This document shows, piece after piece, positions 573-15,910 of a stretch of 64,000 nucleotides of DNA. Where the stretch lies: positions 1,103,856 through 1,167,855 of the forward strand of contig NZ_CH724131.1 of assembly GCF_000152725.1 (NCBI RefSeq), given 5' to 3'. The DNA is from Pseudooceanicola batsensis HTCC2597 (GTDB lineage Bacteria; Pseudomonadota; Alphaproteobacteria; Rhodobacterales; Rhodobacteraceae). Made by a program: the position numbers and the translations under genes. Each line of letters starts with the position of its first letter. Position 1 is the first letter of the stretch. A model generated the notes under the pieces. The model worked only from the letters and a program-made list of their open reading frames with translations. It did no database searches and was not told the DNA's origin.

Positions 573-1319
573 TCAGATTGCGAAGAACACCACCGTCAGC
601 ACAGCACCGATGCCGACGATCAGGGCGCGGAGAGATTCAGTGTCCCGTATGCGACGCGCCTGCCGGGCCCCGATGTATCCTCCCACCGTCGTCGAGATCG
701 CCAGGACCGCCGCAGACTCCCATGCGATCAGGCCGGCGGTCGCGTAGATCGTGACCGAGACCAAGGAGAGCACGGCGGAGAGCAGGTTCTTGAGGCCGTT
801 CATCCCGTGCAGGTTCTGGTAGCCGACCAGGCTGAACACTGCCAGCAACATGATCCCCAGCCCGGCGTTGAAGTAGCCGCCGTAGCCGGCCACGAGGAAG
901 ATCGCGAGAGCCGAGAGAGCCGGCCCGATCATCAGCCCCCTCGCGCGAACGACTGCCACGAGACGTGGCCCTGCGGCGAAGAGCAGCGTGGCAGTGAGCA
1001 GGAGCCAGGGAACGGTCCCGACGAAGGCTTCGCCGGGCGTGACCAACAGAAGACCCGCGCCCGCCAGCCCCCCAAAGGCCGCGACCGTGATAATGCTTCT
1101 CAGCCTTAGGCTTCCCTCGGCGTGGATGTCATAGCGGTAGGCCCAGGCACTCCCGATATAACCCGGTAGCGCGGTCAGTGTCGCCGTGGCGTTGGCTATG
1201 ATCGGAGGGACACCAAGCCAGATCAGGGCGGGGAAGCTGAGCAGTGTGCCGCCGCCGGCGATGGCATTGACGATGCCGGCGAGCAGGCCTGCGATGACAA
1301 GCACAATGATGGAAAGCAC
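573..1319 (-). CDS. Sulfite exporter TauE/SafE family permease
   Basis: An integral membrane protein of the TauE/SafE family (DUF81), which exports sulfite, sulfoacetate or other small organic anions. It is 248 residues, matching the family. Residues 5-25 are hydrophobic and include the conserved GIVNAIAGGGTLLSFPAL loop near residues 13-30; the second family repeat is seen as GGYFNAGLGIMLL around residue 155. The open frame extends upstream to 1613 with no membrane or family similarity. I take the GTG at 1317-1319, which follows a GAGGG ribosome site and puts the first helix at the N-terminus. It converges on the folate gene. The substrate cannot be told from sequence. Confidence 0.82.
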   Translation of the reverse strand: MLSIIVLVIAGLLAGIVNAIAGGGTLLSFPALIWLGVPPIIANATATLTALPGYIGSAWAYRYDIHAEGSLRLRSIITVAAFGGLAGAGLLLVTPGEAFVGTVPWLLLTATLLFAAGPRLVAVVRARGLMIGPALSALAIFLVAGYGGYFNAGLGIMLLAVFSLVGYQNLHGMNGLKNLLSAVLSLVSVTIYATAGLIAWESAAVLAISTTVGGYIGARQARRIRDTESLRALIVGIGAVLTVVFFAI

Positions 1320-1699
1320 TTTGATGCCCTCATGTTGAAGGCCTCTCGATATCCATCGATTGATTTGGTCTGAAAATTGGTCCAGAATGCAGAACGATTT
1401 CTTGCCGCCTGGCAACTTGAGCCGCGAATTGCGGAACTCCGCGGAAAACGTCATGGCGCTGCGGGGGAATGCCCCCGGGTCAGAACCAAGCCGCAGCATT
1501 AGCGAGGGCGAAGGGATGCTAAATTCACTCCTCCCGTCGGATACAGCAAGAGGTTCGCATCGGCATTGGGAGCCGGATTCCGCGTTGCTCACGGGCGAGA
1601 GCTTAAAGAGCACGGACCGGGCCGGGCCTACATTTTCGGCCTACAAGGGTTTTCTATCCGCACGACGAAGGCAACGAAATAAGGCAATTCGCTGCAATT

Positions 1700-1795
1700 C
1701 TATGATCCCTCGGCATTATCCATCATGGGTGCAACGGAAAGCCGTGCGGCCCGCTGGACGTCCGAAACCCCTTGTTTTGCTGGCTCTGCGCGCAT
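1700..1795 (-). pseudogene. dusA: 5' fragment of dusA, left att site of the island
   Basis: Read on the minus strand, an ATG at 1793-1795, preceded by an AGGTGA ribosome site, opens a 31-codon frame containing ARLSVAPMMD. That is the N-terminal strand and flavin-binding start of tRNA-dihydrouridine synthase A (normally RLSVAPMMDWTDRHC). Right after MMD the reading turns to unrelated residues and a stop at 1700-1702, so the gene is interrupted at the point where a known family of tyrosine integrases inserts. The core is about 1703-1726. A homologous fragment lies at 14855-14935 in the same orientation. The dusA body is not in the window. Confidence 0.75.
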
Positions 1796-1852
1796 GGTCA
1801 CCTGACCGGTCTTCCTCTGTTTTCGGGCCTTTTGCCCCCGTTTTCGGGGGTA

Positions 1853-1870
1853 GTGCAACAAATGTTGCAC
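1853..1870. repeat. Perfect palindrome GTGCAACA-AA-TGTTGCAC, probable integrase arm site
   Basis: An 8-base perfect inverted repeat with a 2-base spacer, between the left att core and the integrase. The same GGTGCAACA word occurs as a close direct pair beside both copies of the element's right end (3529-3548 and 14793-14813). This suggests binding sites for the integrase or an excision factor; function is inferred. Confidence 0.5.
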
Positions 1871-2051
1871 CGAATCCCGAATTGTTACACCGCCCTCCAG
1901 CTCCTTCGGAGCCTCGCCTCGTCGCTGCGAAGGCGAGGTCTCCGCCGGGTGCGCCGGTGAGATATCGAACCCTGGACAAAGTTCCGACCGGCGCGCGCCG
2001 CTCGGTTCGATCTCCCGACCATCGGCAACGATTTCCCGAAAGGAGACCCGG

Positions 2052-3165
2052 ATGGGTACCATCATGGCGCGCCAGAAGAAAGACGGCGCGAAGCGCTTCA
2101 CGGCGGTGATCCGCGAGAAGAAAGGCGGCAAGATCGTCCTCACGCTCAGCCAAGACCGAGCGGGGTCCGAAAGGCGAAGGCGCACTCGACCGGGCCGTCG
2201 CGGCGCGGCACCGCAAGACCTGGTCGGGCGTCATCCGGGAATACAGCGACGCCCCGCCGGAGACGTTCGGCAAGACGAAGACCGCGAATCTCGCGTAACT
2301 CCAGCGGCTCGATTTCGGAAAGATGATTGTCGAGGAGACCGGGGAACACGACTTCTTCCGCCTGGCTCGGGATCTTCTGCGGGGCGTGCAAGCCCCGCCG
2401 GCGAACCCTACGGCGGACTGTCCAGAGCATTACGCCCTGAAGCCTCGCATGCCCCAAACTGTCAACAGCTACATGGCGACGCTGCGCACGGTGGTGTCCT
2501 ACGGAGGTCCGATCAGCAAGGTCCGGATGCCGATCGGCGACTCCGAGAGTGCCATGCGCACGCTGAAGCACCAGCGAATGGTCGCTCGGTCGGCGGTTCG
2601 GACTCGCCGGCCTACGCTCGATGAGCTCGACAGGCTTCTGACCCACTTCCACAATCGCTACCTGGCCAACCGCCGAACAGTCCCGATGCACAAGGTGATC
2701 GGCGGCGCGATCACCCTCGCCCATCGTCAGGAGGCGTTGTGCTCCCTTCCCTGGAGGGACCTCGATGAAGAGAAGGCCCGCCTTATGATCCGAAACATGA
2801 AACACCCGCGCCAGACCCAGGGCAACGACATCGAAACGTGGGTCACGGCAGAGGGCATGAAACTCGTTTTGTCGATGTCTCGCAAGAAGGACCGGGTCTT
2901 TCCCTATAGCCCGGACACCATCAGTCGCCTCTTTACGGAAGCATGCCAGATCCTCGGCATCGAGGACCACCACTTCCACGATTTACGCCACGAGGCGATC
3001 TCCCGGTTTTTCGAGACCAGTCTCGGCGGTGGAAGCCGTGACGTCGTCATGAAGTATACCGGGCACTCTCCCGCTGGCAGCCTGTCCCGCTATATTCATG
3101 TGGAACAGATCGGCGACAAATACGCAGACTGGAGATGGGGGCCGATCTTGTTTACCCCGTTGTAG
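2052..3165 (+). pseudogene. Tyrosine recombinase (phage-type integrase), frameshifted and with an internal stop
   Basis: The N-terminus (MGTIMARQKKDGAKRFTAVI) is typical of integrases that start with an arm-binding domain. After LTLSQ near 2155 the family sequence continues in another frame (GALDRAVAARHRKTWSGVIREYSDAPPETF), which is then cut by TAA at 2296-2298. From ATG 2323 an uninterrupted 280-residue frame carries the catalytic domain: HRQE with the first Arg, the KHP lysine segment, FHDLRHE, TGHSPAGS and the nucleophile in RYIH near the C-terminus. So the catalytic half is intact but the full enzyme cannot be made without frame repair. It sits beside the left att site, as expected for an integrase. 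Confidence 0.8.
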
Positions 3166-3170
3166 AGATC

Positions 3171-3209
3171 ACCAAGGGGGGCCTCCAGCGATCCTGCCCC
3201 CCCCTTGGT
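3171..3209 (+). terminator. Hairpin directly after the integrase remnant
   Basis: ACCAAGGGGGG (3171-3181) pairs perfectly with CCCCCCTTGGT (3199-3209) over 11 bases, starting 6 bases after the integrase stop. It lacks a U-tract, so it may be a weak terminator or an RNA-stabilising hairpin. Confidence 0.5.
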
Positions 3210-3528
3210 CAATTGCCGATAGTGAACAGAGGCCGTGGGTAGTGTCCGAGGCGGAGGCAAACCTCTACGCGGCGCTGAAAACTGAAGACATGGCGACGTA
3301 ACTAACCGCAACCAGCCTCCGGCAAACCCGGTGCGGTTCAGAGAGGGTTTGCTCAGCATTGATGTAATCACCAGAGTTCCGCACGCCCTCGCGTAGGAGT
3401 AGTTCAATGCCAGCTCTGTCTGCTGCCCCTATGATCAACCCGCCGCTGGGAAGAGATGAAGGGAAGTGTTCGAATGGTAGCCGGATGCTATCCTCTGCAT
3501 GCGCTCGTAGCCGGCGAAATTGATTGAG

Positions 3529-3616
3529 GTGCAAGAATAGGTGCAACATAATTCGCATGCCAGCGTTTCGGCCAATAAAACAAGGCCTCTCAGGATTCCT
3601 CGGCACCATCCATCAC
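3529..3616. repeat. Copy 1 of the element right end with a dusA-type core
   Basis: The segment contains GGTGCAAGA/GGTGCAACA direct repeats, CAGCGTTT, an ATAAAACAAG tract and a core GATTCCTCGGCACCATCCAT at about 3593-3612. The same elements in the same order occur at 14793-14880. The core matches the dusA reading ATGGATGGTGCCGA on the minus strand. Beyond 3616 the homology to dusA stops and IS3 remnant sequence follows. I read it as the right end of a smaller, earlier or nested island. Confidence 0.6.
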
Positions 3617-3641
3617 CGTACTTGAGGTTCGAAGCCCCTGT

Positions 3642-3709
3642 CCTACCGACAATGGCTTCATCGAAGCGTTCAACAGCAAGCTCCAGACAAAATGCCTGAA
3701 CGCCCCTTG
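3642..3709 (+). mobile_element. IS3-family transposase remnant
   Basis: This short stretch translates as PTDNGFIEAFNSKLQTKCLNA. It matches the end of the DDE core of IS3-family OrfB proteins (consensus near PTDNAFIEAFNGRLRAECLN), including the catalytic Glu. Nothing of the rest of the transposase or terminal repeats is recognisable. It abuts the truncated att copy at 3616, so an IS event probably destroyed that junction. Confidence 0.6.
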
Positions 3710-3716
3710 GTCTATA

Positions 3717-4421
3717 CTACCACTGCACCTCTGGCGGTGCAGTGATCGGTCCGGCAGTCAGGATCCCGCAGGCCGAGATGATCAGGTTCTCGATCGCCAG
3801 TTCCGAGGACCAGAGCTTACCGCCGGTGGGATCCTGCTCAAACGCGGCCTCGCGCGCAGCCAACGTGGAGCCCATGAAGAGGTCCATAAAGATCAGCCGC
3901 TGGTTCAGGACCGACTTCGGGATGCCCGGCAGCAGCCGATAGATATGGTCGATGCAGCGCAGATAGCCCGAGTTCCGGTGCCCCGTGAGCGCCTGCATGA
4001 AGACACGCCGGTTGTTGATCTGCAGCCCCATGACGAAGCGCATATGTCCGGAACTGGCCCCCATGGCGCCGCCGCTGCCGACGCCGCGCGGCGTGGTCTC
4101 GACCTCGACGATCAGGCGGATGATCTCGGCGACCTCCCGTGGCCCGCCGGCGGCCTCGATCTCGTCCAGCCGCCGGATGCGGGCGCTGTCGCTCAGGTGC
4201 GCGCATTCGAGGATCAGCGCCCGGACAAGCGCATCCTTGGAGCCGAAGTAGTAATGGAGCGAGGCGTTGTTGCGCGCCCCCGCCTCGGCCACAATCTGGC
4301 GCACGGTCACGCCGTCGATTCCACGGGCCGAGAAGAGCTTCAGCGCGGCGTCCTTGATCCGCTCCGCCGCCGATTCCGCCTGGTCGTGCCTGCTGTCCTC
4401 TGTCCTTTGCCGCTGCGCCAT
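3717..4421 (-). CDS. TetR/AcrR family transcriptional regulator
   Basis: A 234-residue one-component repressor. Residues 20-65 form the TetR helix-turn-helix (ALKLFSARGIDGVTVRQIVAEAGARNNASLHYYFGSKDAL in pieces), followed by an all-helical ligand-binding domain. The start at 4421 follows GGAGGGA by 11 bases; the longer frame to 4676 overlaps the upstream dctM and has no family similarity. It is the last gene of a minus-strand run esterase-dctP-dctQ-dctM-tetR, so it probably controls that run and the divergent monooxygenase genes through palindromes at 8808-8839. Ligand unknown; likely the substrate or a CoA ester of the pathway (inference). Confidence 0.85.
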   Translation of the reverse strand: MAQRQRTEDSRHDQAESAAERIKDAALKLFSARGIDGVTVRQIVAEAGARNNASLHYYFGSKDALVRALILECAHLSDSARIRRLDEIEAAGGPREVAEIIRLIVEVETTPRGVGSGGAMGASSGHMRFVMGLQINNRRVFMQALTGHRNSGYLRCIDHIYRLLPGIPKSVLNQRLIFMDLFMGSTLAAREAAFEQDPTGGKLWSSELAIENLIISACGILTAGPITAPPEVQW

Positions 4422-4456
4422 GGCGTACCGTTCCCTCCGTTCACAGGCCGGATGCC

Positions 4457-5764
4457 TTACCCGAAGACAGCCGGAAGATACATGACCAGCCCCGGGAAAA
4501 GCACCAGCACGGCCAGAAGCACGAGGTCCATGACCAGGAACCACCAGATCCCGCGGAAAATGGCGGCAGTCGTGATATGCGACGGCACGATGCCCTTGAT
4601 GACGAAGACGTTCATCCCGATGGGCGGCGTGATCATCCCGATCTCCAGCAGCTTGGTCACGATGATCCCGAACCACAGCAGGTCGAAGCCCGCGCCATCG
4701 ATCACCGGCAGGATGATCGGCAGGGTCAGCAGCATCGCCCCGATCGGTTCAAGGAACATCCCCAGCAGCAGGTAGACGAGGATCACGCCCAGCAGGATCG
4801 TCATCGGCCCCGCGCCCGACGCGAGGATCGCCCCGCTCAGGAAATCGCCGGTGCCCGACAGTGCGAGGAACCGGGTCAGCAGGCTGGCGCCGACCCCGAT
4901 GATGATCAGCGCGCCGGTGGTCAGCACCGTCTCGGTGATGGCGTCGGTGAAGCGGCGTAGGGTAAAGCTGCCCTTCAGGATCGCCGTCAGCGTGGCCAGC
5001 GTGGCCCCGACGGCGCCCGCCTCGGTCGGGGTGAAGACCCCGCCGAACAGCCCCGAGAAGATGCCCAGCATGATCAGCAGCACCGGCCAGGTCTCGCGCA
5101 GCGCCGCGATCCGTTCGGACCACGAGGCGCGGTCGTCGGTCGAGGGGGCCAGCAACGGGTCCAGCGTCACCCGGATCATCACCACGGCGATATAGCCGAG
5201 CGCCGTCAGCACCCCCGCCGCGATGCCGCCAAGGAACAGGTGCGTCACCGGCACCTGGGCCACGATTCCATAAAGGATCATAATCACCGACGGCGGGATC
5301 AGCGCCCCGATGGTCCCGGCGACCGCCACCGTGCCCGTCGCGAGCTGCGGGTGATAGCCCGATTTCAGCATCTCCGGTACTGCGATCCGCCCCATGGTCG
5401 CCGAGCAGGCGATCGACGAGCCGGACACCGCCGCGAACCCCGCGCTGCCCAGAATGCTGGCGATCGCCAGGCCTCCTGGCAGCACCGAGAGCCACGCCCG
5501 CGCGGCCCGGAACAGCCCCTCGGTCAGCCGCGTCTGGTAGCTGATGAACCCCAGAAGCAGGAACATCGGCACCGAGGACAGCACCCAGTTGGCCGCGAAG
5601 TTGTGCGGGATCAGCCCCAACGAACCCCACGCGATGCGCCAGTTGGTGAGCTGCCACAGGCCGAGGAAGGACACGCCGATCAGTGCCACGCCGATGGGCA
5701 TCCGCAGCGCGATCAACACGATGAGAAGCCCGAGCACGGCGAGTCCCAGTTCCACCCCGGTCAT
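4457..5764 (-). CDS. dctM: TRAP transporter large permease subunit, DctM family
   Basis: The 12-helix ion-coupled subunit of a tripartite ATP-independent periplasmic transporter, 435 residues (usual about 430). Family landmarks include IALRMPIGVALIG near the N-terminus, the hairpin segment AGFAAVSGSSIACSATMGRIAVPEML around residues 110-140, GTIGALIPPSVIMILYG near 165, and TPPIGMNVFVIKGI near the C-terminus. The ATG overlaps the stop of dctQ by four bases (ATGA), indicating translational coupling. It works with the dctQ and dctP genes just upstream. Given the adjacent esterase and monooxygenase, a carboxylate or keto substrate is likely, but that is inference. Confidence 0.93.
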   Translation of the reverse strand: MTGVELGLAVLGLLIVLIALRMPIGVALIGVSFLGLWQLTNWRIAWGSLGLIPHNFAANWVLSSVPMFLLLGFISYQTRLTEGLFRAARAWLSVLPGGLAIASILGSAGFAAVSGSSIACSATMGRIAVPEMLKSGYHPQLATGTVAVAGTIGALIPPSVIMILYGIVAQVPVTHLFLGGIAAGVLTALGYIAVVMIRVTLDPLLAPSTDDRASWSERIAALRETWPVLLIMLGIFSGLFGGVFTPTEAGAVGATLATLTAILKGSFTLRRFTDAITETVLTTGALIIIGVGASLLTRFLALSGTGDFLSGAILASGAGPMTILLGVILVYLLLGMFLEPIGAMLLTLPIILPVIDGAGFDLLWFGIIVTKLLEIGMITPPIGMNVFVIKGIVPSHITTAAIFRGIWWFLVMDLVLLAVLVLFPGLVMYLPAVFG

Positions 5765-6270
5765 TGCGGCAGCTCCCGTCCGTCATCGCCGGTCACGTAG
5801 GTGGCGAAGCGCAGAACCAGCAGCGCCGTCATCAACCCCGCCCCCGCCGGCAGGGCGAAGTAGGCGGGCCACACCGGGATCGTCGAGGAGCCGCTGACCT
5901 GCGCCGTCCCGCCGCGGAAGGCATCCATCGCCGCGCCGAAGGTCCGCCATGTCAGCAGCCCCGTCACTGCCGCCGTCGGCAGCAGCATCACCCCTGCGAC
6001 GTGGCGCTGAACCCGCTGCGGCAACAGGTCGGTGACGAACTCGACCGAGATATGGGCCCGCCGCTCCTCGGCCAGCGCCAGCGGGATGAAGGCGGCGATG
6101 ACCATGTAGTAGTAGCTGACGAGCGTGAGCGTCGCGGGCAGCGGATGGCCGAAGAGATGGCGCAGGGCGACGGAGAGCGTCACCTGCAGCATCATCAAGG
6201 CCACGGCGAGGCCGGCCAGAGCCGAGCTCCACCGTGCGGCGCGCGAAAGGATGAACGAAAGGGTTTTCAT
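5761..6270 (-). CDS. dctQ: TRAP transporter small permease subunit, DctQ family
   Basis: The four-helix small membrane subunit (169 residues) that holds the large subunit and contacts the binding protein. Helices are near residues 15-35, 48-68, 88-108 and 130-150; the family segment PLALAEERRAHISVEFVTDLLP lies near residues 60-82. It overlaps dctM by four bases and follows dctP after a 51-base gap that contains a strong hairpin. Part of the dctPQM set in the island. Confidence 0.88.
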   Translation of the reverse strand: MKTLSFILSRAARWSSALAGLAVALMMLQVTLSVALRHLFGHPLPATLTLVSYYYMVIAAFIPLALAEERRAHISVEFVTDLLPQRVQRHVAGVMLLPTAAVTGLLTWRTFGAAMDAFRGGTAQVSGSSTIPVWPAYFALPAGAGLMTALLVLRFATYVTGDDGRELPQ

Positions 6271-6286
6271 GGGCGGCCCGTGCAGG

Positions 6287-6315
6287 TGCGGGGGCCCCGG
6301 ACGAGGGCCCCCGCA
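6287..6315 (-). terminator. Hairpin between dctP and dctQ
   Basis: TGCGGGGGCCC (6287-6297) pairs with GGGCCCCCGCA (6305-6315), 11 perfect pairs with a 7-base loop, just after the dctP stop on the minus strand. No U-tract is seen, so partial termination or protection of the dctP transcript from 3' decay is more likely than full termination. It would give more binding protein than permease. Confidence 0.6.
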
Positions 6316-6321
6316 TGTCTC

Positions 6322-7479
6322 TTACTTGACGCCGTACTGGCTGACGTCGACCTTCGAGAAGATCTCCTCCCAGTACAGATCGCCGTAGCCCTGTTCGGGA
6401 TCCGCCTCGCCGATCAGGCCGACCCATTTCTCCAGCAGCGCCGTGAAATCGTCGAGCATCTCCTCGCCGCGCTCCACGCCGTATTCCTCCTGAAAGTAGG
6501 CGACGGTCGACGCGCGGTCCTCGGCGATGAACTCCTGCGTGGCCTCGACCACGGCGTCATCCGCCTGCATGATCTCGACACCGTTCTCGCGCGCCGCGGC
6601 TTCCACCTCGGCCGCGCCCTCCTGGTAGCGTTGCGAGGTCCAGGCCGACCCGTGGGCCATCGCCTTCAGAAAATCGGTGCGCTGCTCTTCCGACAGCTCG
6701 TTCCAGCTGCTGATGTTCATGTTCGACATTGAGGCGAAATAGGCCCCCCCGGGGGCGCCCTTGGTGATGTGAGTGACGGAATCGCCCATGCCGAAGTTGT
6801 AGATGTCCGGCGTCGACAGGATGATGCAGTCCAGCACGCCCTGGTTCAGCGCCTCGAGCATCTCGTTGCCTGACATGGTGATCGGCGCGGCGCCGATCGC
6901 CTCGGACCAGCGCGCCCAGTTGGCCCCGCCGATGCGCAGCCGTGCGCCCTGCAGGTCCTCCATCGTGGCCACCGGTTTGGTGCAGTTCAGCACGTATTGC
7001 GGCGTGCCCGCGCCCCCGGTGAACACCTGGTTCTGCGCGGCGAATTCCTCGACGCACTCCGGACACTTGGTGAAGACGAACTCGGACACGGCGGCGGCGA
7101 AGGCCGGCCCCTGCACCTCGGTCGCGCCCTCGCCGAGGGTCTCGAGGATCATCGAGGATTCGATGATCAGGTTCGTGTGCGGGAACTCGGCCGGGAAATA
7201 GGGCGTCATCACGGTGCCCACGTCGGCCAGCCCCTCGCGCAGGCCGCCCATGGTCTCGGCCATGGAGAGCAGCGACATCGGGTAGACCTTGAGGGTCATG
7301 TCGCCGCCGGTCGCCTCGTTGAACTCTTCCGAGGCCCGTTCGCCCCCCTTCACGAGGTAGGACACCGGCGGATGCCCGATGGCAAAGCTCAGTTCGCGCG
7401 CCTGCGTCGCCCCGGCCAGCAGCCCGGTGCAGAGCGCCGCCGCGGAAACGGCGGTGGTCAGTCCTTTCAGTTGAGTCAT
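6322..7479 (-). CDS. dctP: TRAP transporter substrate-binding protein, DctP family
   Basis: Periplasmic solute-binding protein of 385 residues with a Sec signal peptide (MTQLKGLTTAVSAAALCTGLLAGATQA, cleavage near residue 27). Family features include the GGLREGLADVG segment near 80, MEDLQGARLRIGG near 180-192 with the conserved ligand-carboxylate Arg, and the GVLDCIILS helix. It has a CPEC pair near residue 130 and a further Cys before position 170, unusual but possibly a periplasmic disulfide. The start follows GGGAGGAAG; the frame upstream to 7560 is not used because it would bury the signal peptide. It lies 38 bases after the esterase and was probably co-transcribed with it. Confidence 0.92.
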   Translation of the reverse strand: MTQLKGLTTAVSAAALCTGLLAGATQARELSFAIGHPPVSYLVKGGERASEEFNEATGGDMTLKVYPMSLLSMAETMGGLREGLADVGTVMTPYFPAEFPHTNLIIESSMILETLGEGATEVQGPAFAAAVSEFVFTKCPECVEEFAAQNQVFTGGAGTPQYVLNCTKPVATMEDLQGARLRIGGANWARWSEAIGAAPITMSGNEMLEALNQGVLDCIILSTPDIYNFGMGDSVTHITKGAPGGAYFASMSNMNISSWNELSEEQRTDFLKAMAHGSAWTSQRYQEGAAEVEAAARENGVEIMQADDAVVEATQEFIAEDRASTVAYFQEEYGVERGEEMLDDFTALLEKWVGLIGEADPEQGYGDLYWEEIFSKVDVSQYGVK

Positions 7480-7517
7480 GGTCTTCCTCCCTATTTGACC
7501 TATGGTCGTTCTGTGGT

Positions 7518-8759
7518 TCAGCTCCAGAACCCGTGGCGATCCTCCGTCGCCCCGAGACATCCGTAGGTGGCGTCGATCAGCGACTGGCCGCGTTCGTTCA
7601 GAAGCAGCCCACCGCCCAGACGGTTCATCGTGTACCCGAAGGCCAGCCCGCGATCGGGATCGGCGAAGCCCACCGATCCGCCCATGCCGACATGACCGAA
7701 GGCGCGAGGCCCGATCACCAGCCCCTCTTCGCCCACCGGCGTCGGCCGCCGCCCCATCGCCAGCATGAACCCCGGCCCGAAGCGCGTCGGCGCCTGCAGC
7801 GTGGCGTCATGATGGGTGGCCGAATTCGCCTGCGCGAAGCTTTCGACGGTGACGGGATCGAGGCCCAGCGCCTCGCCCCCCGCGGCAAGCGCCGCGAACA
7901 GCCCGGCCAGACCGCGCGCGTTGGTCACGCCGTTGGCGGCCCCGATTTCGGTGGCGCGACCGGCACGGGTGTTCACCCCCTTCACCGCCCAGTCCCCGCT
8001 GTTGAAGACGAAGAGGTTGGGGATCGTCCCCTCCTCCATCGCCGCGCGGAGGAAGGGCATGCCTTGTTCCTCCCGGCTGGGGCGATAGGGCACGACCGGC
8101 GCCACGCGCGGCTCGTCCTCCTCGGGCAGGCCGATGGCGAAATCCAGCCCCAGCGGCCGCGCGATCTCATCGCGGAAGAAGGCGCCGAGCGACCGGCCCG
8201 ACACCCGCCGCACGACCTCGCCCACGAGGAAGCCGAAGGTGACGGCATGGTATCCCACCTGAGACCCCGGCGCCCAGAAGGCCGTCTCGGCCTCGAGGTG
8301 GCTGACCATGTAGTCCCAGTCCTGCAGGCAATCGGGCTTCAGCGGCGCGCGCAGCGCGGGCAGCCCGGCAGAGTGGTCCAGTAGCATGCGCAGGGTGATC
8401 GCGTCCTTCCCCTGCCCGGCGAACTCGGGCCAGTAGCGGGCGACCGGCGCGTCAAGTTCGATCTCGCCGCACGCGGCGAGGACGTGCAGGCACAGCGCCG
8501 TCGCGGCCTTGGTGCAGGAAAAGACCACGCCCACGGTATCGCGCTGCCACGCGGGGCCATCCGGTTCGGTGACGCCGCCCCAGAGGTCCACGACCCGCCG
8601 GCCCCCGACCGTCACGCAAAGCGAAGCGCCCAGTTCCCCGCGCTCGGCGAAGTTCGCCGCGAAGGCGTGTGCGATGCACGTGTAGTCCAAATGCACCTCT
8701 CCCGTGATCGCGGCGGAGAGCGGCTGAGTCAGCGCTTCCGTCACCGGCAGCATGTCCAT
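7518..8759 (-). CDS. Serine hydrolase / esterase of the class C beta-lactamase fold
   Basis: A 413-residue member of the family VIII esterase / class C beta-lactamase-like group. The nucleophile motif SCTK is at residues 81-84 (S-x-x-K), the second motif tyrosine is in VGYHAVTFG near 168, and the HxG-like GHVGMGGS lies near 353. There is no signal peptide, so it is cytosolic, which argues for ester hydrolysis rather than antibiotic resistance. It heads the minus-strand operon with the TRAP genes and is divergent from the Baeyer-Villiger monooxygenase. Its simplest role is to cleave the ester or lactone that enzyme makes (inference from context). A second in-frame ATG lies two codons in. Confidence 0.82.
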   Translation of the reverse strand: MDMLPVTEALTQPLSAAITGEVHLDYTCIAHAFAANFAERGELGASLCVTVGGRRVVDLWGGVTEPDGPAWQRDTVGVVFSCTKAATALCLHVLAACGEIELDAPVARYWPEFAGQGKDAITLRMLLDHSAGLPALRAPLKPDCLQDWDYMVSHLEAETAFWAPGSQVGYHAVTFGFLVGEVVRRVSGRSLGAFFRDEIARPLGLDFAIGLPEEDEPRVAPVVPYRPSREEQGMPFLRAAMEEGTIPNLFVFNSGDWAVKGVNTRAGRATEIGAANGVTNARGLAGLFAALAAGGEALGLDPVTVESFAQANSATHHDATLQAPTRFGPGFMLAMGRRPTPVGEEGLVIGPRAFGHVGMGGSVGFADPDRGLAFGYTMNRLGGGLLLNERGQSLIDATYGCLGATEDRHGFWS

Positions 8760-8807
8760 GGGCCCTCCTCACAGAACGAAACGAACCGCATTAAGTCATT
8801 TGGTTAA

Positions 8808-8839
8808 ATCATATGATCAAGTCTATTGACTTACGTCAA
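8808..8839. promoter_or_regulatory. Two palindromes in the divergent promoter region
   Basis: ATCATATGAT (8808-8817) is a perfect 10-base palindrome, and TTGAC-TTAC-GTCAA (8826-8839) is a 5-base inverted repeat. Both lie in the 152-base AT-richer gap between the esterase and the monooxygenase. This is the natural place for the island TetR protein to control both arms. The assignment is inferred. Confidence 0.45.
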
Positions 8840-8911
8840 GTCCAAGGTTCATTCTTGCCGAAATCGCAGCCCGGCGTGCTGGCCGCGAAGACGACAAGGA
8901 GGCGCCGCTCC

Positions 8912-10825
8912 ATGGCATTGGCAGAGACGAAGCAGACCTGGACAGACTGGGACAGCCGCCTGAAAAAGGCGGTCGGGATCGCGAACGTGCCCACGCTCCT
9001 GCTGGTGCTGGTGCAGATGACCGGCGCCCCCCGCTGGCTCGAGCCGCCCTACGCCCCCCGTCGCGGCCGGGGGCTGGACGACAACGACTCCGGCGGGCTG
9101 CCCAAGGAGACGCAGGACGAGATTCGCACCGCCGCCTTCCAAGCCATCCGCGCCTGGCACAACGGCGCCTCCCTGGCCTGGCCCGACCCCTCGCCGTCGA
9201 TGCTGGCGCACATGCTTTCGGTCTCCATGGGCGAGGACGTCTCCGAGGACTACGGCGACATCATCAAGGCCGAGCTTTCCGGCACCTCTTTCGACCAGCA
9301 TCCGGTGAACGCCCCCGAGAGCTTCCGCGCGCTGATCATCGGGGCCGGCATGTCGGGCATCTGCGCCGCGATCCGGCTGCAGGCGGCGGGTATCCCTTTC
9401 GACATCGTCGAGAAGGACGGCGATTTCGGCGGGACATGGCGCGAGAACACCTATCCCGGCGCCGGGGTGGACACGCCGAACCACCTCTATTCCTACTCCT
9501 TCGCGCAATACGACTGGTCGCATTACTTCGCCCTGCGCGACGAGCTCTATGACTACTTCCGCACTGTCGCGACGGACTATGGCCTGTCGGAGCACACCGC
9601 GTTCCACACCAAGGTCAAACGCGCGTCCTACGACACCGACAGCCACGACTGGCAGGTGCAGATCACCGGTCCCGACGGGACAGAGACACGGCGCTACGGC
9701 GCGATCTTTTCGGCTGTCGGCGTGCTGAACATCCCCAAGGTGCCGCCGATCAAGGGACTCGAAACCTTCTCCGGGCGCAGCTTCCATACCGCCGAATGGC
9801 CCGACGACGTTGACCTGACGGGCAAGCGCGTCGGCATCGTCGGCAACGGGGCGAGCGCCATGCAGGTCGTACCGGCGATCGCCGGGCAGGTCTCGCACCT
9901 GACGATCTTCGCGCGTTCCAAGCAATGGGCCGCACCCTTCCCCAAGTTCCGCCAGCCCGTGCCCGACGCGATCCGCTGGCTGATCCAGGAAGTGCCGCTT
10001 TACCAAAAATGGTATCGCCAGCGGCTGGCCTGGACCTTCAACGACCGCGTCCACGGCTCGCTGCAGCGCGACCCCGAATGGGAGGACAGCGGCCGCGCCA
10101 TCAACCCCACCAATGAATCGCACCGCAAGTTCTTCACCGACTACGTGAAGGAAGAACTTGGCGACCGGCAAGACCTGCTGGACAAGGTCCTGCCCGACTA
10201 CCCGCCCTTCGGAAAGCGCATGCTGCTGGACAACGGATGGTTCCGCACCGTGGCGCGGGAGGACGTGACACTGGTAGACGAGCACCTGAAGGAGGTCCGC
10301 GGATCGACGCTGGTGGCCGGCGACGGAAGCGAACACGAGGTCGACGTGCTAATTCTCGGCACCGGCTTCCACGCGACCGAGCTTCTGGCCTCGCTCGACG
10401 TGGTGGGCCGTGACGGCCAGGCGCTGCGCGAGGTCTGGAACGACGACGACGCGCGCGCCTACCTTGGCACCACGGTGCCCGGCTTCCCGAACCTGTTCAC
10501 CCTGCTGGGGCCCAACATCGGCCTCGGTCACGGGGGCAGCGTGATCACGCCTGTCGAGGCGCAGATCAACTACGTCATGGACCTGCTGGAAAAGGCATTC
10601 GCCCGCGGCGCCCGCGCCGTCGAGGTCCGCGAGGACGTCCATGACGACTACAACCGCCGCGTTGACCACGCCCATGATAACATGGTCTGGACTCATCCCG
10701 GCATGGAGAACTGGTACCGCAACTCGAAGGGACGCGTGGTGGCCATCACCCCATGGCGTCACGACGACTTCTGGCGCATGACGCGCGAGGCGGACCTCGG
10801 AGACTACGAACTCGACACGCCCTGA
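8912..10825 (+). CDS. Flavin-containing Baeyer-Villiger monooxygenase, long (HAPMO-like) type
   Basis: Inserts one oxygen atom next to a carbonyl, turning a ketone into an ester or lactone with NADPH and FAD. The protein is 637 residues. About 130 extra N-terminal residues precede the first Rossmann motif GAGMSG (near 143), a layout and length known from 4-hydroxyacetophenone monooxygenase. The type I fingerprint FSGRSFHTAEWP (near 285-296) and the second dinucleotide motif GNGAS (near 312) are intact. The ATG at 8912 has AAGGAGG nine bases upstream; an in-frame ATG at 8813 is rejected since it lies within the palindrome region and has no good ribosome site. The natural ketone is unknown; aryl or cyclic ketones are candidates. 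Confidence 0.9.
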   Translation: MALAETKQTWTDWDSRLKKAVGIANVPTLLLVLVQMTGAPRWLEPPYAPRRGRGLDDNDSGGLPKETQDEIRTAAFQAIRAWHNGASLAWPDPSPSMLAHMLSVSMGEDVSEDYGDIIKAELSGTSFDQHPVNAPESFRALIIGAGMSGICAAIRLQAAGIPFDIVEKDGDFGGTWRENTYPGAGVDTPNHLYSYSFAQYDWSHYFALRDELYDYFRTVATDYGLSEHTAFHTKVKRASYDTDSHDWQVQITGPDGTETRRYGAIFSAVGVLNIPKVPPIKGLETFSGRSFHTAEWPDDVDLTGKRVGIVGNGASAMQVVPAIAGQVSHLTIFARSKQWAAPFPKFRQPVPDAIRWLIQEVPLYQKWYRQRLAWTFNDRVHGSLQRDPEWEDSGRAINPTNESHRKFFTDYVKEELGDRQDLLDKVLPDYPPFGKRMLLDNGWFRTVAREDVTLVDEHLKEVRGSTLVAGDGSEHEVDVLILGTGFHATELLASLDVVGRDGQALREVWNDDDARAYLGTTVPGFPNLFTLLGPNIGLGHGGSVITPVEAQINYVMDLLEKAFARGARAVEVREDVHDDYNRRVDHAHDNMVWTHPGMENWYRNSKGRVVAITPWRHDDFWRMTREADLGDYELDTP

Positions 10826-10874
10826 CCGGGCGGTCCGGCGGCTGGAGGAGGCCGCCGAAACCAGGGAGGAGAAT

Positions 10875-12524
10875 ATGCTGGAAGTGCTCGAAAGCCCGAC
10901 GTCCGAAGAGACGTCCGACCCCCGGGTTCCGGCGCGCGACAGCGTCGTCACCCGCTACCTGATCGACCGTTGGGCACGGGAGCGGCCCGACAAGATCTTC
11001 GCCAAGTTCAACGACGACGGCGAGGAATGGAGCTATGCCGCCTTCCGCGAGTTGATCGTGCAGACCGCCGTCGGCCTTCAGGCGCAGGGCGTCGCGCAGG
11101 GCGATCACGTTCTGGTCTGGATGCCCAACTGCCGCGAACAGATCCGCATCTTCTTCGCGCTGAACTACCTTGGTGCCGTGTACGTGCCGATCAACACCGC
11201 CTACAAGGGCGGGCTGCTGGAGCATGTCATTGACATTTCCGACGCCCGCCTAGCCGTGGTGGACGCGAGCCTTGTCGACCGCCTTGAGGGGGTCGATCAC
11301 GGCCGGCTGGAAAGCCTGATCGTCACCGGCGGCAGCGTGGACAAGCCCCCCCTTCCCCACGTGCACTACGCCGAGGCGCTGCTGCCCGAAAGCGGCCAGC
11401 TTCAGCCCCTGACCCGTGCGATCGATCCCTGGGATTCCATGGCGATCATCTTTACCTCGGGCACCACCGGTCCGTCGAAGGGGGTGCTGACCTCCTACCT
11501 GCACCTCTTCTCGAACGCGGGCCCGGAAAGCTGGCCCTTCGTGACGGAAGACGACCGCTACATGATCAACGCGCCGATGTTCCACATCGGCGGCATGGGC
11601 CCGATGTTCTGCATGCTGGCGCGGGGCGCTTCGATCGCGTTCGTGGACCGCTTCGACACCGCGACTTACTGGGAGTCGGTGCGCAACACCGGCAGCACAG
11701 TGGCCTTCCTGCTGGGCGTCATGGCCAGTTTCCTCGAAAAGCAGCCCGTCGGCCCGCAGGACGCGGACAACCCCCTGCGCCTCGTGCTGATGGTGCCACT
11801 GGCCGCGAACTCGGAAAGCTTCTCAAAGCGGTTCGGCGTGGACGTCTACACCATCTTCAACATGACCGAGGCCTCCACCCCGATCGTCTCGGAGCCCAAC
11901 CCCACCGTACGCGGCACCTGCGGCAAGCCCCGCGATGGGGTCGAGGTGCGTCTGGTAGACGAGAACGACTGCGAAGTGCCCGTCGGCACCATGGGCGAGA
12001 TGATCATCCGCACCGACCGCCCCTGGGCGATGAACAGCGGCTATTACAAGATGCCCGAAGCGACGGCGAAGGCCTGGCGCAACGGCTGGTTCCACTCGGG
12101 CGACGCCTTCGTGCGTGATGAGAAAGGCAACTTCTTCTTCGCTGACCGGATGAAGGATTCCATACGCCGCCGTGGGGAAAACATCTCGTCCTTCGAGGTG
12201 GAGTCCGAGGTCCTCGCCCACCCCGACGTCTTCGAGGCCGCCGCCGTCGCCGTGCCGAGCGAGCACAGCGAGGACGACGTTATGATTTGCATCGCGCCCG
12301 TGGAAGGCAAGACCGTCGATCCGGCGCAGCTGATCGACTTCCTGAAAGATCGGATGGCCTACTTCATGGTCCCGCGCTATGTCCGCACCCTCGACACCCT
12401 ACCCAAGACGCCAAGCGCCAAGGTGCTCAAGCACGAGCTGCGCGCGACAGGCGTAACCGAGGACACCTGGGATCGCGACGCCGCCGGTGTCAGCCTGAAG
12501 AGCGAAAGGTTCGCGCGCGCCTGA
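10875..12524 (+). CDS. Acyl-CoA ligase (AMP-dependent synthetase, class I adenylate-forming)
   Basis: Activates a carboxylic acid as acyl-AMP and then as a CoA thioester. It has 549 residues. The phosphate-binding loop FTSGTTGPSKG starts near residue 192; the A5 segment FNMTEAST lies near 328; the hinge motifs GWFHSGDAF, DRMKD and RRRGENIS follow near 408-437; and the C-terminal lysine is in TPSAKVLK near 510. Overall it resembles carnitine/crotonobetaine-CoA ligase-like enzymes. The start follows AGGGAGGAGAAT. It is 50 bases after the monooxygenase and is read with it. It would activate the acid released by the esterase (inference). Confidence 0.88.
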   Translation: MLEVLESPTSEETSDPRVPARDSVVTRYLIDRWARERPDKIFAKFNDDGEEWSYAAFRELIVQTAVGLQAQGVAQGDHVLVWMPNCREQIRIFFALNYLGAVYVPINTAYKGGLLEHVIDISDARLAVVDASLVDRLEGVDHGRLESLIVTGGSVDKPPLPHVHYAEALLPESGQLQPLTRAIDPWDSMAIIFTSGTTGPSKGVLTSYLHLFSNAGPESWPFVTEDDRYMINAPMFHIGGMGPMFCMLARGASIAFVDRFDTATYWESVRNTGSTVAFLLGVMASFLEKQPVGPQDADNPLRLVLMVPLAANSESFSKRFGVDVYTIFNMTEASTPIVSEPNPTVRGTCGKPRDGVEVRLVDENDCEVPVGTMGEMIIRTDRPWAMNSGYYKMPEATAKAWRNGWFHSGDAFVRDEKGNFFFADRMKDSIRRRGENISSFEVESEVLAHPDVFEAAAVAVPSEHSEDDVMICIAPVEGKTVDPAQLIDFLKDRMAYFMVPRYVRTLDTLPKTPSAKVLKHELRATGVTEDTWDRDAAGVSLKSERFARA

Positions 12525-12569
12525 GAGGCCCGCACAGCCTGCGTTATGTATTTTGAGAGGGAGGAAACC

Positions 12570-13748
12570 ATGACAACACCCAGCACAGGCATGGTGGTGA
12601 TGACATCGACCGAACGGGTCCGCTTCGGCGAACGCGCCGCGGCCTCGATCGCCGCCGAGGCCGAGATGATGGATGCCCAGCGGGTCGTGCTGATCGCCAG
12701 CCGCTCGCTCGCCACCGGGACCGACGAGATCACGCAGGTTGAACAGGCGCTCGGCGCGCGCCACGCGGCCACCTATTCCGGCGTCGAGCCGCACGTGCCC
12801 CGCACCAATGTCATCGAGGCAACTGGGATCGCGCGCGAAGCCGGGGCCGACCTGATCGTCTCCGTGGGCGGCGGATCCGTCACCGACTGCGCCAAGATCG
12901 TGCCGGTGATGCTCAAGCACGACATTGACCGCCCCGAGGATATGGAGGACTATCACATTACCGTGGACGACGCCGGCGCGATGGTCCTGCCGCAGTTCGC
13001 GCCGCAAGAGATCCGCACCATCTGCGTGCCAACCACCCTCTCCGGGGGCGAGTTCAACCCGCTTTCCGGCTCCACCGATCCGGTGAGCAAACACAAGCAA
13101 GGCTATCAGGAACGCATGATGGCGCCTGTGGCGGTCGTCCTCGATCCGGCGCTGACGCGGCATACGCCCGAATGGCTTTGGCTATCGACCGGGGTACGGG
13201 CGCTGGATCACGCGATCGAGACACTGCAGTCCTTCCAGTCCAACGACTTCTGCGACGGGCTGGCGGAAAGCGCGCTCAGACTCCTGATCGAGGGGCTCCC
13301 GCGAGTGAAGGCGAACCCGGAAGACCTCGACGCGCGGCTGAAATGCCAGATGGGCGTCTGGCAGTCCATGCTCCCAATCATAGCCGGGGTCCCGATGGGG
13401 GCCAGCCACGCGATCGGGCACGTGCTGGGCGGCCTCTGCGACGTCCCGCACGGCTACACCTCCTGCGTGATGTCGCCGTTCGTGCTGGAATGGAATTCCA
13501 AGGTGAACACGGAGCGGCAGGCCCGCATCAGCGCCGCCTTCGGCCAGCCGGAAAGGCCGGCGTCCGAGCTTGCGGACAGCTTCATCTCCGGGCTCGGGAT
13601 GCCTCGATCGCTCTCGGCCGTCGGCGTTAGGTCGGATCAGATGCAGAAGGTCGCCGAATACACAATGGACGACATCTGGGGAAAGACGAACCCGCGGACG
13701 ATTTCCGAGCCGGAAGACGTGATGGAGATCCTCCGCTTGGCTGAGTGA
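12570..13748 (+). CDS. Iron-containing alcohol dehydrogenase family (maleylacetate-reductase-like)
   Basis: A group III metal-dependent NAD(P) oxidoreductase of 392 residues. The dinucleotide-binding GGGSVTDCAK begins near residue 100. The metal ligands Asp and His in RALDHAIE (near 210) and the His residues of MGASHAIGH and DVPHG (near 276-292) are all present, so it should bind Fe or Zn. The ATG at 12570 has GGGAGGAAA upstream; the earlier ATG at 12546 is rejected. It is the third plus-strand gene, 45 bases after the CoA ligase. It may oxidise the alcohol half of the cleaved ester, or reduce a maleylacetate-type product if the substrate is aromatic. Context does not decide. Confidence 0.87.
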   Translation: MTTPSTGMVVMTSTERVRFGERAAASIAAEAEMMDAQRVVLIASRSLATGTDEITQVEQALGARHAATYSGVEPHVPRTNVIEATGIAREAGADLIVSVGGGSVTDCAKIVPVMLKHDIDRPEDMEDYHITVDDAGAMVLPQFAPQEIRTICVPTTLSGGEFNPLSGSTDPVSKHKQGYQERMMAPVAVVLDPALTRHTPEWLWLSTGVRALDHAIETLQSFQSNDFCDGLAESALRLLIEGLPRVKANPEDLDARLKCQMGVWQSMLPIIAGVPMGASHAIGHVLGGLCDVPHGYTSCVMSPFVLEWNSKVNTERQARISAAFGQPERPASELADSFISGLGMPRSLSAVGVRSDQMQKVAEYTMDDIWGKTNPRTISEPEDVMEILRLAE

Positions 13749-14792
13749 GGGCAGAGATGCTCCGCTGCCTTCGCGGTACCCCATCCCTTCTGCGGGCGGC
13801 GGCGGACTGTCCATCATCCTCCCGAACCTGTCGATCTTCGCCGTGCCCGAGGATGCCAACATCGGCCATCTCGGCGACCAAGACAATGGTGATCGGGCCG
13901 CTGCTGATCCTGTCTCGTTTCCCAGCGCCGCTTCCTGCAGGCCTTCCTGTGTGCCGGGACCAATTTAAAGCTGATACGACCTGGGAAGACACCCCGGCCC
14001 TGCGCCACCTCGCAGTGAACCCGCTGGCGCGCACTCTTGGCGAGGCCGTAGGGGAGGATCCCGATGTCAAGGGCCGCACTGGGCTGCTGTACCCGATTTT
14101 TTTTGAGTAAGACCACCGCCGCCTGCGCCGCGGCGTCGAGGGGAGCAGGGTCAGGGGTGCTGGCAAGGAGCCCGAGCCGTGCCGTTTCGAGCCCGCGCGG
14201 ATCGAAGGGAACGGCGCTATCGTTGTCGCGCCATGCCTGATCGGCATGCTGCTTGACCAAGCCATCTCTATGGGCGGACAGAACAACAAAGAGTGCCGTG
14301 TCCAACAAGACTAGAGACGCCCATGAACGACTCGGAAACTCCGACAGCCTCGCATTGCGATGAGCTGATCAGGAGGAGTTCGGAAGGAAATGTCGCATGA
14401 CAATCGAGATTATCGGCGAGGACTTCGTCGCCCCGACCCAGCAAGCGCAACGCCTGTTCACCGATCTGGGCCAGTCAAGCTTCCAGGCCGCTCTGGAGGA
14501 CGGTCCAACGTGGGCGGCCCTTATGAACCATCGCGGTCGGCGTGTCCAGCATAGTCCTCATGCTGCTCTCCACCGTCGACGACGCTATCAACCTGATCGA
14601 TCGCGCCACGCGCGACACTGTCATGATGGGCGTCGATGACCTCAATGCCGTGCTCGAATCCGCCGGTGCTGAAAGTGATATTACCACCTCGAATGCCGCA
14701 CGCTCCTCCTGCCCAAATCTGCCACCGACGAGATCGTCGATGCCATCATGGCCGAATTCAGGGAACGGCAATCGTAAGGTGGCCATGGCTAA
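13749..14792. pseudogene. Decayed mobile-element region, no intact gene
   Basis: About 1 kb with broken reading frames only. On the minus strand near 13846-13917 a frame reads GPITIVLVAEMADVGILG, faintly like the helix-hairpin-helix end of IS110-family transposases (weak). On the plus strand, 14397-14520 reads MTIEIIGEDFVAPTQQAQRL and onward, then shifts frame. A segment at 14560-14665 reads DDAINLIDRATRDTVMMG. A frame at 14703-14777 ends LLLPKSATDEIVDAIMAEFR before a TAA. These look like pieces of one small, frameshifted gene at the island's right end whose family I do not recognise. An 8-base T run at 14096-14104 could be one frameshift site. Confidence 0.45.
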
Positions 14793-14880
14793 GGTGCAAC
14801 AATCGGTGCAACAGATTTCGTTGGGCAGCGTTTTGATAAATAAAACAAGAGCCTTTAGGACTCATCGGCACCATCCATAA
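14793..14880. repeat. Copy 2 of the element right end with dusA core
   Basis: Direct repeats GGTGCAACA at 14793-14801 and 14805-14813, CAGCGTTTT, an ATAAAACAAG tract and a core CTCATCGGCACCATCCATAA at 14861-14880. It is homologous, with the same spacing, to 3529-3616. Here it joins a dusA 5' fragment with no break, so this is the complete right boundary of the island. Confidence 0.65.
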
Positions 14881-14935
14881 TCGGGGCGACGGAAAGGCGC
14901 GCGGCCGCGCGGATGCTGGATACCCCGTGTTTCAT
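14855..14935 (-). pseudogene. dusA: 5' fragment of dusA, right att site
   Basis: The minus-strand ATG at 14933-14935 opens a 26-codon frame containing ARLSVAPIMDGADES. The first part is the DusA N-terminus; the reading diverges after IMD at the att core. Alignment with 1700-1795 covers roughly 90 bases: both read GVS-x-x-x-x-AARLSVAP-x-MD, and the two are in the same orientation. The sequence to the right (14936-15137) would be the original dusA promoter side. With no dusA body nearby, the tRNA-modifying gene must have been separated from this start, or reconstituted with another start outside the window. Confidence 0.72.
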
Positions 14936-15445
14936 TGGCTGTCCCGACAAGTCGCGCATCCGGCATTTCCGTCGTATTGACCGCGTCGCGCGGTATTTCA
15001 TCCATATGGGACCACACATAAGGGCCCGGGACCGGATTGGTAGTCCCGGTGCGAGGCTCATAACAGCACGTGTCCGCGGCTTCAAACCTGGCGATCGCAG
15101 ATCGAGGCGGGAATGGTCCCGGGTTCATAGCATATAGAGGACCGCATCCACCCCGAGGGCCCCGATCAGCCGGCGATGCACTGGCAAACCAAAGATGCGT
15201 CGCCGTTCTCGTCCTGGCGCGCTGCCGGCCCCCGATACGTCTCGCGGCATCTTTGCCGGAAGAGGCATCGCGGAGTGCAGGAAGGGCTGTCGGCAGGGTC
15301 CGTCGGGTGACAGCGGCACCCGAGGATGAATCGCACCGTGGCCGCGTCGCGGAGGCGGCGGGGCAAGCGGCACAATCTGGCGCGATCGTTCAAGCGCCGG
15401 GAGCGATTCACGCGCAGTCTCTTCTCCGGAACAAGGAGAGAGATC
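14936..15445. other. Intergenic region right of the island
   Basis: Some 510 bases with no supported gene. The left part should be the former dusA upstream region. The right part holds the ribosome site (AAGGAGAG) of the ferredoxin-like subunit gene. I see no repeat or strong hairpin. Confidence 0.4.
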
Positions 15446-15910
15446 ATGGAACTCGAGATCAACGGCGAAACGGTCGCGCTGCCCGACAGGCTGCAGCATG
15501 CGCCCTTGCTGGATGTCATACGTGACCACCTCGGACTGAAGGGCACCAAGTTCGGCTGTGGAGCCGGCCTGTGCGGGGCCTGCACGATCCATGTGGACGG
15601 CGTGGCGACCCGCTCATGCCAGATGACCCCCGCCTCGGTCGCGGGCGCCTCGGTCCGCACGATCGAGGGGCTCGCCGGCAAAGACCGGCTGCATCCCGTC
15701 CAGCGGGCGTGGATGGCGGAACGCGTTCCCCAGTGCGGCTATTGCCAGCCCGGGCAGATCATGACCGCGGCGGCCTTCATCCAGGAGGTGCCGCAGCCTT
15801 CCGATGCCGAGATACGTCAGGCGATGCAGGGCAACCTGTGCCGCTGCGGGACCTATCCCCGCATCCGGGCCGCCGTGGCGCGCGCCGCAAGGGAGGCGCG
15901 GCATGACTGA
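15446..15910 (+). CDS. iorA: (2Fe-2S)-binding subunit of a molybdenum hydroxylase, IorA type
   Basis: Small electron-transfer subunit (154 residues) of a xanthine-oxidase-family enzyme. The plant-ferredoxin-like N-terminal domain has the four cysteines of [16 protein letters not shown] and RSC (about residues 37-60). The second [2Fe-2S] domain has CGYCQPGQ near 99 and [10 protein letters not shown] near 131-140. The ATG at 15446 follows ACAAGGAGAG. Its stop overlaps the next gene's ATG by eight bases (ATGACTGA). Two-gene sets without a FAD subunit are typical of isoquinoline 1-oxidoreductase-like and membrane-linked aldehyde-oxidising enzymes; the electron acceptor is then another carrier. 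Substrate unknown. Confidence 0.88.

Follow-up and report, generated by a model that had tools for sequence, protein, structure and literature searches.

A putative catabolic cassette with a Baeyer-Villiger monooxygenase in the outermost unit of a three-island array at dusA in Pseudooceanicola batsensis HTCC2597

The dusA-specific genomic islands described by Farrugia et al. (2015, PMC4482086) use the 5′ end of dusA as their target, carry an adjoining tyrosine integrase, leave the original 5′ end displaced as a direct repeat and bear highly variable cargo that includes metabolic enzymes. According to that account, the 5′ sequence of an occupied dusA is island-derived: the incoming island brings a new 5′ end and displaces the old one, which rejoins the gene upon excision. 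Here we describe such a locus in 64,000 nt of Pseudooceanicola batsensis HTCC2597 (contig NZ_CH724131.1, positions 1,103,856 to 1,167,855; hereafter the window), where two direct dusA fragments enclose a cassette of eight genes for a type I Baeyer-Villiger monooxygenase (BVMO), an acyl-CoA ligase, an iron-containing-type alcohol dehydrogenase (Fe-ADH), an esterase, a tripartite ATP-independent periplasmic (TRAP) transporter and a TetR-family regulator. We lean, if only modestly, towards reading this locus as the outermost and probably oldest unit of a dusA-island array, holding a portable catabolic cassette that would act on an acid and activate it with CoA early.

Two catabolic pathways come closest to this gene content. 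In Comamonas testosteroni KF-1, the genes of the BVMO SAPMO of the 4-sulfoacetophenone pathway and of an ester hydrolase lie side by side, and the catabolic genes likewise ride on what may be a mobile element, with IS1071 on either side (PMC3746432). The carrier differs, and in P. batsensis the TRAP importer, ligase, Fe-ADH and TetR genes belong to the same divergent unit. In the camphor pathway of Pseudomonas putida, as outlined in PMC6027186, CamF followed by CamG (OTEMO) is a precedent for a CoA ester being made from an acid and then passed to a BVMO. Here the proposed likeness lies in gene pairing only, and the camphor pathway differs in that CamF is listed as camF1 + F2 and the OTEMO lactone opens spontaneously (PMC6027186). 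Few BVMOs have a known natural substrate (PMC4498894). The parts of the cassette are of known kinds and their combination appears to be new: open-licence papers, searched with narrow wording, yielded no description of it, in line with an earlier sequence-only reading of this DNA that had called the cargo undescribed on dusA, although the cassette also exists away from dusA.

Serial islands at dusA

A scan of 164,856 bases (genome positions 1003000–1167855) for the 11-residue dusA motif RLSVAPMMDWT, with up to four substitutions allowed, gave four hits, always on the minus strand: in the intact dusA (1008379) and in fragments at 1058317, 1105600 and 1118755, the last two being window positions ~1745 and ~14900. 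A blastn search with 90 nt of the intact dusA 5′ end matched the same three fragments (1105600, E 5e-7; 1058317, E 2e-6; 1118755, E 8e-4), and the next-best match was already at E 0.12. A 190-nt query from a congener dusA 5′ end and its upstream DNA matched the right-hand fragment (76% over 176 nt, E 2e-29, blastn), and 216 nt at and to the right of that fragment (window ~14874–15088) matched the dusA 5′ end and upstream DNA of two of seven congeners at 76% and 71%. Translation, motif scan and blastn thus agree on two direct dusA fragments around the gene set. Integrases, all in one orientation, stand beside the first three of the four dusA sites and match one another at 33–44% identity; that of the third island is decayed, its N- and C-terminal parts lying in separate frames with a stop between them and the C-terminal part being open from 2323 to 3165 (Table 1). 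The result is a tandem array of three islands of ~49.9, 47.3 and 13.2 kb, spanning ~110 kb overall. Islands of this class have a semiconserved att sequence of ~21 bp at both ends; at the array's own sites that were aligned, a possible counterpart is a common core around the MMDWTD codons. An island at dusA, as had been proposed from the sequence, is well supported and can be extended to a three-island array, while the stretch between the two fragments holds a decayed integrase and an att-like arm in addition to the catabolic genes.

Table 1. Features of the dusA array and of the cassette (window positions unless marked as genome positions)
Feature	Position	Strand	Remarks
Intact dusA	genome C2:1007416-1008417	-	~96 kb left of window
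Integrase, first island	genome 1008636-1009883	+	adjoins intact dusA end; Pfam Phage_integrase
Integrase, second island, intact	genome 1058642-1059793	+	adjoins dusA fragment; Pfam Phage_integrase
dusA 5′ fragment 3, displaced	1715..1765	-	left border of third island; translation RLSVAPMMDNAEGS; blastn 96%/27 nt, E 5e-7
Tyrosine integrase, decayed, third island	~2040-3165	+	Pfam Phage_integrase 7e-11; 42%/307 aa to integrase at 1058642
Att-like right-arm remnant	3527..3618	-	direct repeat of 14792-14883
Scrap resembling an IS3-type transposase	3635..3715	+	TDNGFIEAFNSKLQTKCLN; at seam of the two units
TetR-family regulator	3717..4421	-	last of left set; Pfam TetR_N 3e-13; start by eye
TRAP large permease DctM	4457..5764	-	Pfam 2e-78; TIGR00786 above cut-off
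TRAP small permease DctQ	5761..6270	-	Pfam 4e-22; 4-nt overlap with DctM
TRAP solute-binding protein DctP	6322..7479	-	Pfam 5e-26; start 7479 fits homologues
Esterase, beta-lactamase fold (family VIII type)	7518..8759	-	Pfam 7e-66; PDB 8j5v carboxylesterase 1e-83
Palindrome, candidate TetR operator	8826..8839	.	TTGACTTACGTCAA, 14 bp; by eye overlaps -35-like TTGACT
Type I BVMO, 637 aa	8912..10825	+	fingerprint FSGRSFHTAEWP, GAGMSG, GNGASA
Acyl-CoA ligase (AMP-binding)	10875..12524	+	Pfam 9e-62; TSGTTGPSK
Fe-ADH	12546..13748	+	Pfam 8e-34 and 6e-30; GGGSVTD
Right att-like arm of ketone unit	14792..14883	-	repeat search, blastn
dusA 5′ fragment 4, displaced, outermost found	14884..14935	-	right border; translation RLSVAPIMDGADES

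The two att-like arms of the third island are 81% identical over 88 nt (E 3e-16, blastn), and since the right arm is repeated in this way, the third island is probably itself two, namely a 1.9-kb remnant with the broken integrase and a ketone unit with the cassette (~3618–14884), from which its own integrase and the greater part of its left dusA piece seem to have disappeared. At the seam lies a scrap with a motif that resembles an IS3-type transposase; Pfam gave no match to it.

From this anatomy, dusA appears to have taken in at least three islands one after another. Each arriving island would have recombined at the dusA 5′ end, supplied a new 5′ end and pushed the previous one away, in at least three rounds. 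Because the ketone unit is farthest from dusA, the published displacement mechanism would make it probably the oldest, and because the integrase of its island is decayed, the cassette is now probably fixed. Serial dusA fragments may thus record the order in which islands arrived, and the array is a good example of serial dusA insertion. In comparison with the islands of PMC4482086, three are stacked here with serial dusA fragments and one decayed integrase; the word "tandem" is absent from that paper, and BVMO cargo is not among the examples in its sections 13, 15 and 16.

We located dusA loci in 9 of 22 genomes of the genus, our own included, with the antisense frame of dusA as the search query, and made later comparisons with the right frame. 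The comparisons covered seven of the 21 congeners, the eighth with a dusA locus (L051) being at a contig end. Core genes from window position 30759 rightwards lie 126 kb from dusA in P. batsensis and, in the same order, 15.6 kb (G008) and 23.8 kb (G019) upstream of dusA in two congeners; in a third (G013), part of that core starts ~28.9 kb from dusA. Between dusA and this core, the three congeners had no shared frame of at least 150 aa at the thresholds used, so that the dusA site looks like a hot spot in the genus. No frame of the 15.8 kb at window positions 14.9–30.7 kb matched the dusA regions of the seven congeners, and this stretch may therefore be variable too. One gene of the second island has a matching frame in G019, 15.4 kb upstream of dusA (63% over 150 aa). 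In another congener (G005, L056), an integrase frame lies 288 nt upstream of dusA and is 59% identical to the integrase of the second island.

An origin without any island would make the dusA-like pieces coincidental and the cassette an ancient chromosomal cluster that this genome retained and others lost; it strikes us as very improbable. The G+C content of the cassette (62–68% in 2-kb windows) is within the range of the remaining window, as fits such an origin, but four same-strand copies of the dusA motif, three of them beside related integrases, the blastn matches and the displaced core synteny of the congeners led us to reject it. Nor did relatives lacking the repeats turn out to carry this cluster at the corresponding position, an outcome that had been named as one that would count against an island; the best full-length match to the BVMO in 21 congeners had 43% identity.

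The cassette and its control region

Pfam identified DctM, DctQ, DctP, a beta-lactamase-fold esterase, an FMO-like/BVMO protein, an AMP-binding ligase, Fe-ADH and TetR, the families that had been read from the sequence and in the same place. The minus strand carries the esterase, dctP, dctQ, dctM and tetR genes, the plus strand those of the BVMO, ligase and Fe-ADH, and none of the eight frames contains a stop. With all three components found by Pfam, the TRAP set is complete, and R182 of DctP, presumably the carboxylate-binding arginine discussed for TRAP proteins, aligned with an arginine in the four solved relatives shown. The esterase has the SxxK nucleophile motif (SCTK, residues 81–84), and a simple pattern search of its sequence gave no second (tyrosine) motif. 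In the BVMO, the type I fingerprint FxGxxxHxxxW(P/D) stands between two Rossmann motifs, and the N-terminal extension is helical (helices at 13–123) in a structure model with a mean pLDDT of 66, which we used for the N-terminal part only. Predicting the substrate from a model of DctP was dropped, this model being too poor (mean pLDDT 38).

Ratios of nonsynonymous to synonymous substitution (dN/dS) for the cassette genes were 0.11–0.24 between the window and its homologue in Heliomarina baculiformis (L011), and 0.01–0.20 between the latter and that in Phaeobacter sp. 22II1-1F12B (L017). These low values point to purifying selection for function and, judged by its sequence, the cassette is real, intact and conserved.

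Both gene sets diverge from a single region (8760–8911). The BVMO start, previously placed at 8813, was corrected to 8912, which is backed by the aligned starts in H. baculiformis and Phaeobacter, where a stop sits upstream; this start leaves 152 nt between the sets. Of the two divergent operons around palindromes that the sequence-only reading had described, the divergence stands, the operons being inferred from gene order alone, and the palindromes come down to one conserved copy in one region. With up to one mismatch allowed, TTGACTTACGTCAA occurs once in the 4.44-Mb genome, and a reversed control pattern does not occur; it is found at the same place in H. baculiformis, Phaeobacter and a Gemmobacter contig (L012). 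The simplest reading of this palindrome is a cluster-specific TetR operator, through which the two sets may be co-regulated, as had been expected of them.

Homologous loci and the order of the reactions

H. baculiformis and Phaeobacter carry all eight genes in the same order (67–86% aa identity), and their 21.9-kb stretches, 92.6% identical to each other, contain no match to dusA or to integrases of the array type; on these grounds, we rejected a strict link between the cassette and dusA. The ten proteins neighbouring the H. baculiformis cassette are mostly ABC transporter parts, with an amidohydrolase, a CobW-type and a regulator protein, and one without a match. Seven of the genes, all but that of the Fe-ADH, are collinear in Tistrella mobilis pTM2 and in two further genomes labelled as the same genus (L052, L075, L077). 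The gene set, for which a search of related strains had been suggested as a check, was thus recovered in other genera. One further genome (G259) has the cassette in rearranged form, and its neighbours there are, by Pfam, an acyl-CoA dehydrogenase, a family III CoA-transferase, an enoyl-CoA hydratase, a beta-keto acid cleavage enzyme and a second ligase, a setting that speaks for a link to CoA chemistry.

To compare gene contexts, 23 BVMO loci were taken, of which 21 are distinct (L076 repeats L052 and L084 repeats L011). They were chosen for having several kb around the BVMO, and comprise five of seven from one search (L012 and L013 were too short), seven of the 20 listed among 842 records, and matches from searches at family, class and phylum level, where 394, 385 and 398 genomes were sampled at cut-offs of 1e-150, 1e-200 and 1e-200 and 5, 7 and 2 matched, our own included. 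Left out were the short contigs of G369 and a paralogue in our own genome (L063), a locus with the BVMO only. A ligase homologue (at least 50% identity) was present in nine of the 21 loci, including all those with a TRAP permease (7/7), an adjacent esterase (6/6) or an Fe-ADH (4/4). In Rhodococcus opacus, an adenylate-forming enzyme and a short-chain dehydrogenase are encoded next to the BVMO, and a CoA-transferase and an alpha/beta hydrolase farther along; in L079, the ligase and the BVMO are separated by a short-chain dehydrogenase. Both loci offer similar activities from other families. Novosphingobium EMRT-2 (L053) and G1097 (L082) have a BVMO-ligase-Fe-ADH trio with a cytochrome P450, and within the stretches fetched neither has a homologue of the cassette esterase or TRAP genes. 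In our own genome, the BVMO query gave 11 matching stretches, and a second long BVMO, 41% identical, is encoded on another contig (G000:C5:47269-49215). In the Gemmobacter-type genome (G369, L042), TetR homologues flank a second BVMO, which is 56% identical.

The co-occurrence of the ligase among the 21 loci, the similar activities in R. opacus and L079 and the arginine of DctP lead us to favour a keto acid over a neutral ketone as the substrate, with the ligase acting on it. A conserved TRAP arginine forms a salt bridge with the carboxylate of the ligand (PMC5812351). In the scheme we propose, the TRAP transporter would import a carboxylate whose ketone group is present from the start or can be formed by oxidation, and the appearance of this substrate or of its CoA ester would release TetR from the single divergent operator, so turning both gene sets on. 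The ligase would activate the acid to its CoA ester, the BVMO would insert oxygen beside the ketone, the esterase would cut the resulting ester or lactone, and the Fe-ADH would oxidise an alcohol at one of two points, ahead of the BVMO step, where it would form the ketone, or once the ester has been hydrolysed. That the BVMO may see a CoA ester, as opposed to the free acid, has the camphor pathway as its precedent.

Several observations weigh against this account. The cassette BVMO is not a close sequence relative of OTEMO: its best scores in a PDB search were with cyclohexanone (5e-62), phenylacetone and other BVMOs, and OTEMO (3uov, 6e-56) ranked below the first two. Twelve of the 21 loci had no cassette homologue at 50% identity or more, so the BVMO family must serve other purposes as well. 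No copy of the palindrome with up to two mismatches turned up in L052, L075, L077 or L062. The Gemmobacter contig, 3.5 kb long and outside the 21 loci, has the divergent esterase-BVMO pair with the palindrome, but the 0.7 kb that it retains downstream of the BVMO contains no ligase homologue; it breaks the ligase pattern for the esterase and made us weigh the favoured account and its most novel form lower, and a route that starts from a neutral ketone higher. As to the island itself, no clean empty dusA site, of the kind that had been named as something to look for in relatives, was found among the seven congeners. Moreover, as the 216 nt at and to the right of fragment 4 resemble the DNA between dusA and an integrase in G005, fragment 4 could stem from an older island and not from the native dusA end.

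The single coherent pathway envisaged in the sequence-only reading is plausible, but the order given there, with import followed by oxidation of the ketone, ester hydrolysis, alcohol oxidation and CoA activation, is only one of at least three that fit, and the gene context speaks rather for an acid that is activated with CoA early, whereas the Gemmobacter contig points the opposite way. In that order, a neutral ketone would enter, the BVMO would turn it into an ester, the esterase would release an acid and an alcohol, the dehydrogenase would oxidise the alcohol and the ligase would act last, much as in the 4-sulfoacetophenone pathway. We regard this as a less likely but still serious possibility: BVMO and esterase are divergent neighbours in the window, L011, L017, L052, L075, L077, L062 and L012, the last of these without a ligase directly after the BVMO, and SAPMO and its ester hydrolase also have neighbouring genes. 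A dedicated TRAP system, mostly a carrier of carboxylates (PMC5812351), would nevertheless be ill-suited to a neutral ketone, and the ligase is a commoner partner of the BVMO than an adjacent esterase (9 vs 6 of the 21 loci).

It is also conceivable, though somewhat unlikely, that the dehydrogenase acts first, on an imported hydroxy acid, and that the resulting keto acid passes to the ligase, BVMO and esterase; this order is compatible with the scheme we favour, and its probability overlaps with that of the latter. The trios with a P450 in L053 and L082 look as if hydroxylation and alcohol oxidation made the ketone there, and the short-chain dehydrogenases between ligase and BVMO in L079 and after the BVMO in R. 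opacus fit as well. The stretches of L052, L075 and L077, on the other hand, lack the Fe-ADH. Iron-type dehydrogenases act mostly on primary alcohols or aldehydes, a preference that fits oxidation after ester cleavage.

Within the favoured scheme of an acid and early CoA activation, we think it rather doubtful, yet worth stating, that the cassette encodes an alphaproteobacterial pathway not described so far, one that would turn an imported keto or hydroxy acid into a CoA ester and then cleave it with a ~640-aa BVMO of a lineage other than that of OTEMO, all controlled by a single dedicated TetR switch, the cassette having spread between orders and been captured in the dusA stack. Since it bundles importer, switch, ligase, BVMO, esterase and dehydrogenase in several genera, with one predicted operator, the cassette offers a way to test what a BVMO does in nature, and its DctP and TetR regulator can report its substrate.

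Cargo of the nearer islands and flanking genes

Ten proteins were scanned from each of the two nearer islands, and four of the 20 had no domain match. Those of the first island include metallo-beta-lactamase-fold and rhodanese proteins, a sulfate permease, two flavin disulfide reductases, an MFS protein and a multicopper oxidase. The second carries an IS21-type pair, a PIN-domain protein, a SMODS nucleotidyltransferase followed by a ThiF-family protein, a 701-aa phage-integrase-family protein, a DUF305 protein, a heavy-metal P-ATPase and an SCO1 protein. The cargo of the nearer islands (L005, L007, L009) is in part sulfur-handling (rhodanese, sulfate permease) and in part metal-related (multicopper oxidase, heavy-metal P-type ATPase, SCO1). 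The SMODS nucleotidyltransferase and ThiF-family pair (L008:5885-8571, genome 1068884-1071573) resembles a cyclic-oligonucleotide-based anti-phage signalling system (CBASS). At the right end of the second island, a TauE/SafE-type exporter (window 573-1613) adjoins dusA fragment 3, and just to the right of the array the window carries a molybdenum-hydroxylase-like pair of 2Fe-2S and MoCo-binding proteins with an AraC-type regulator (15443-19129).

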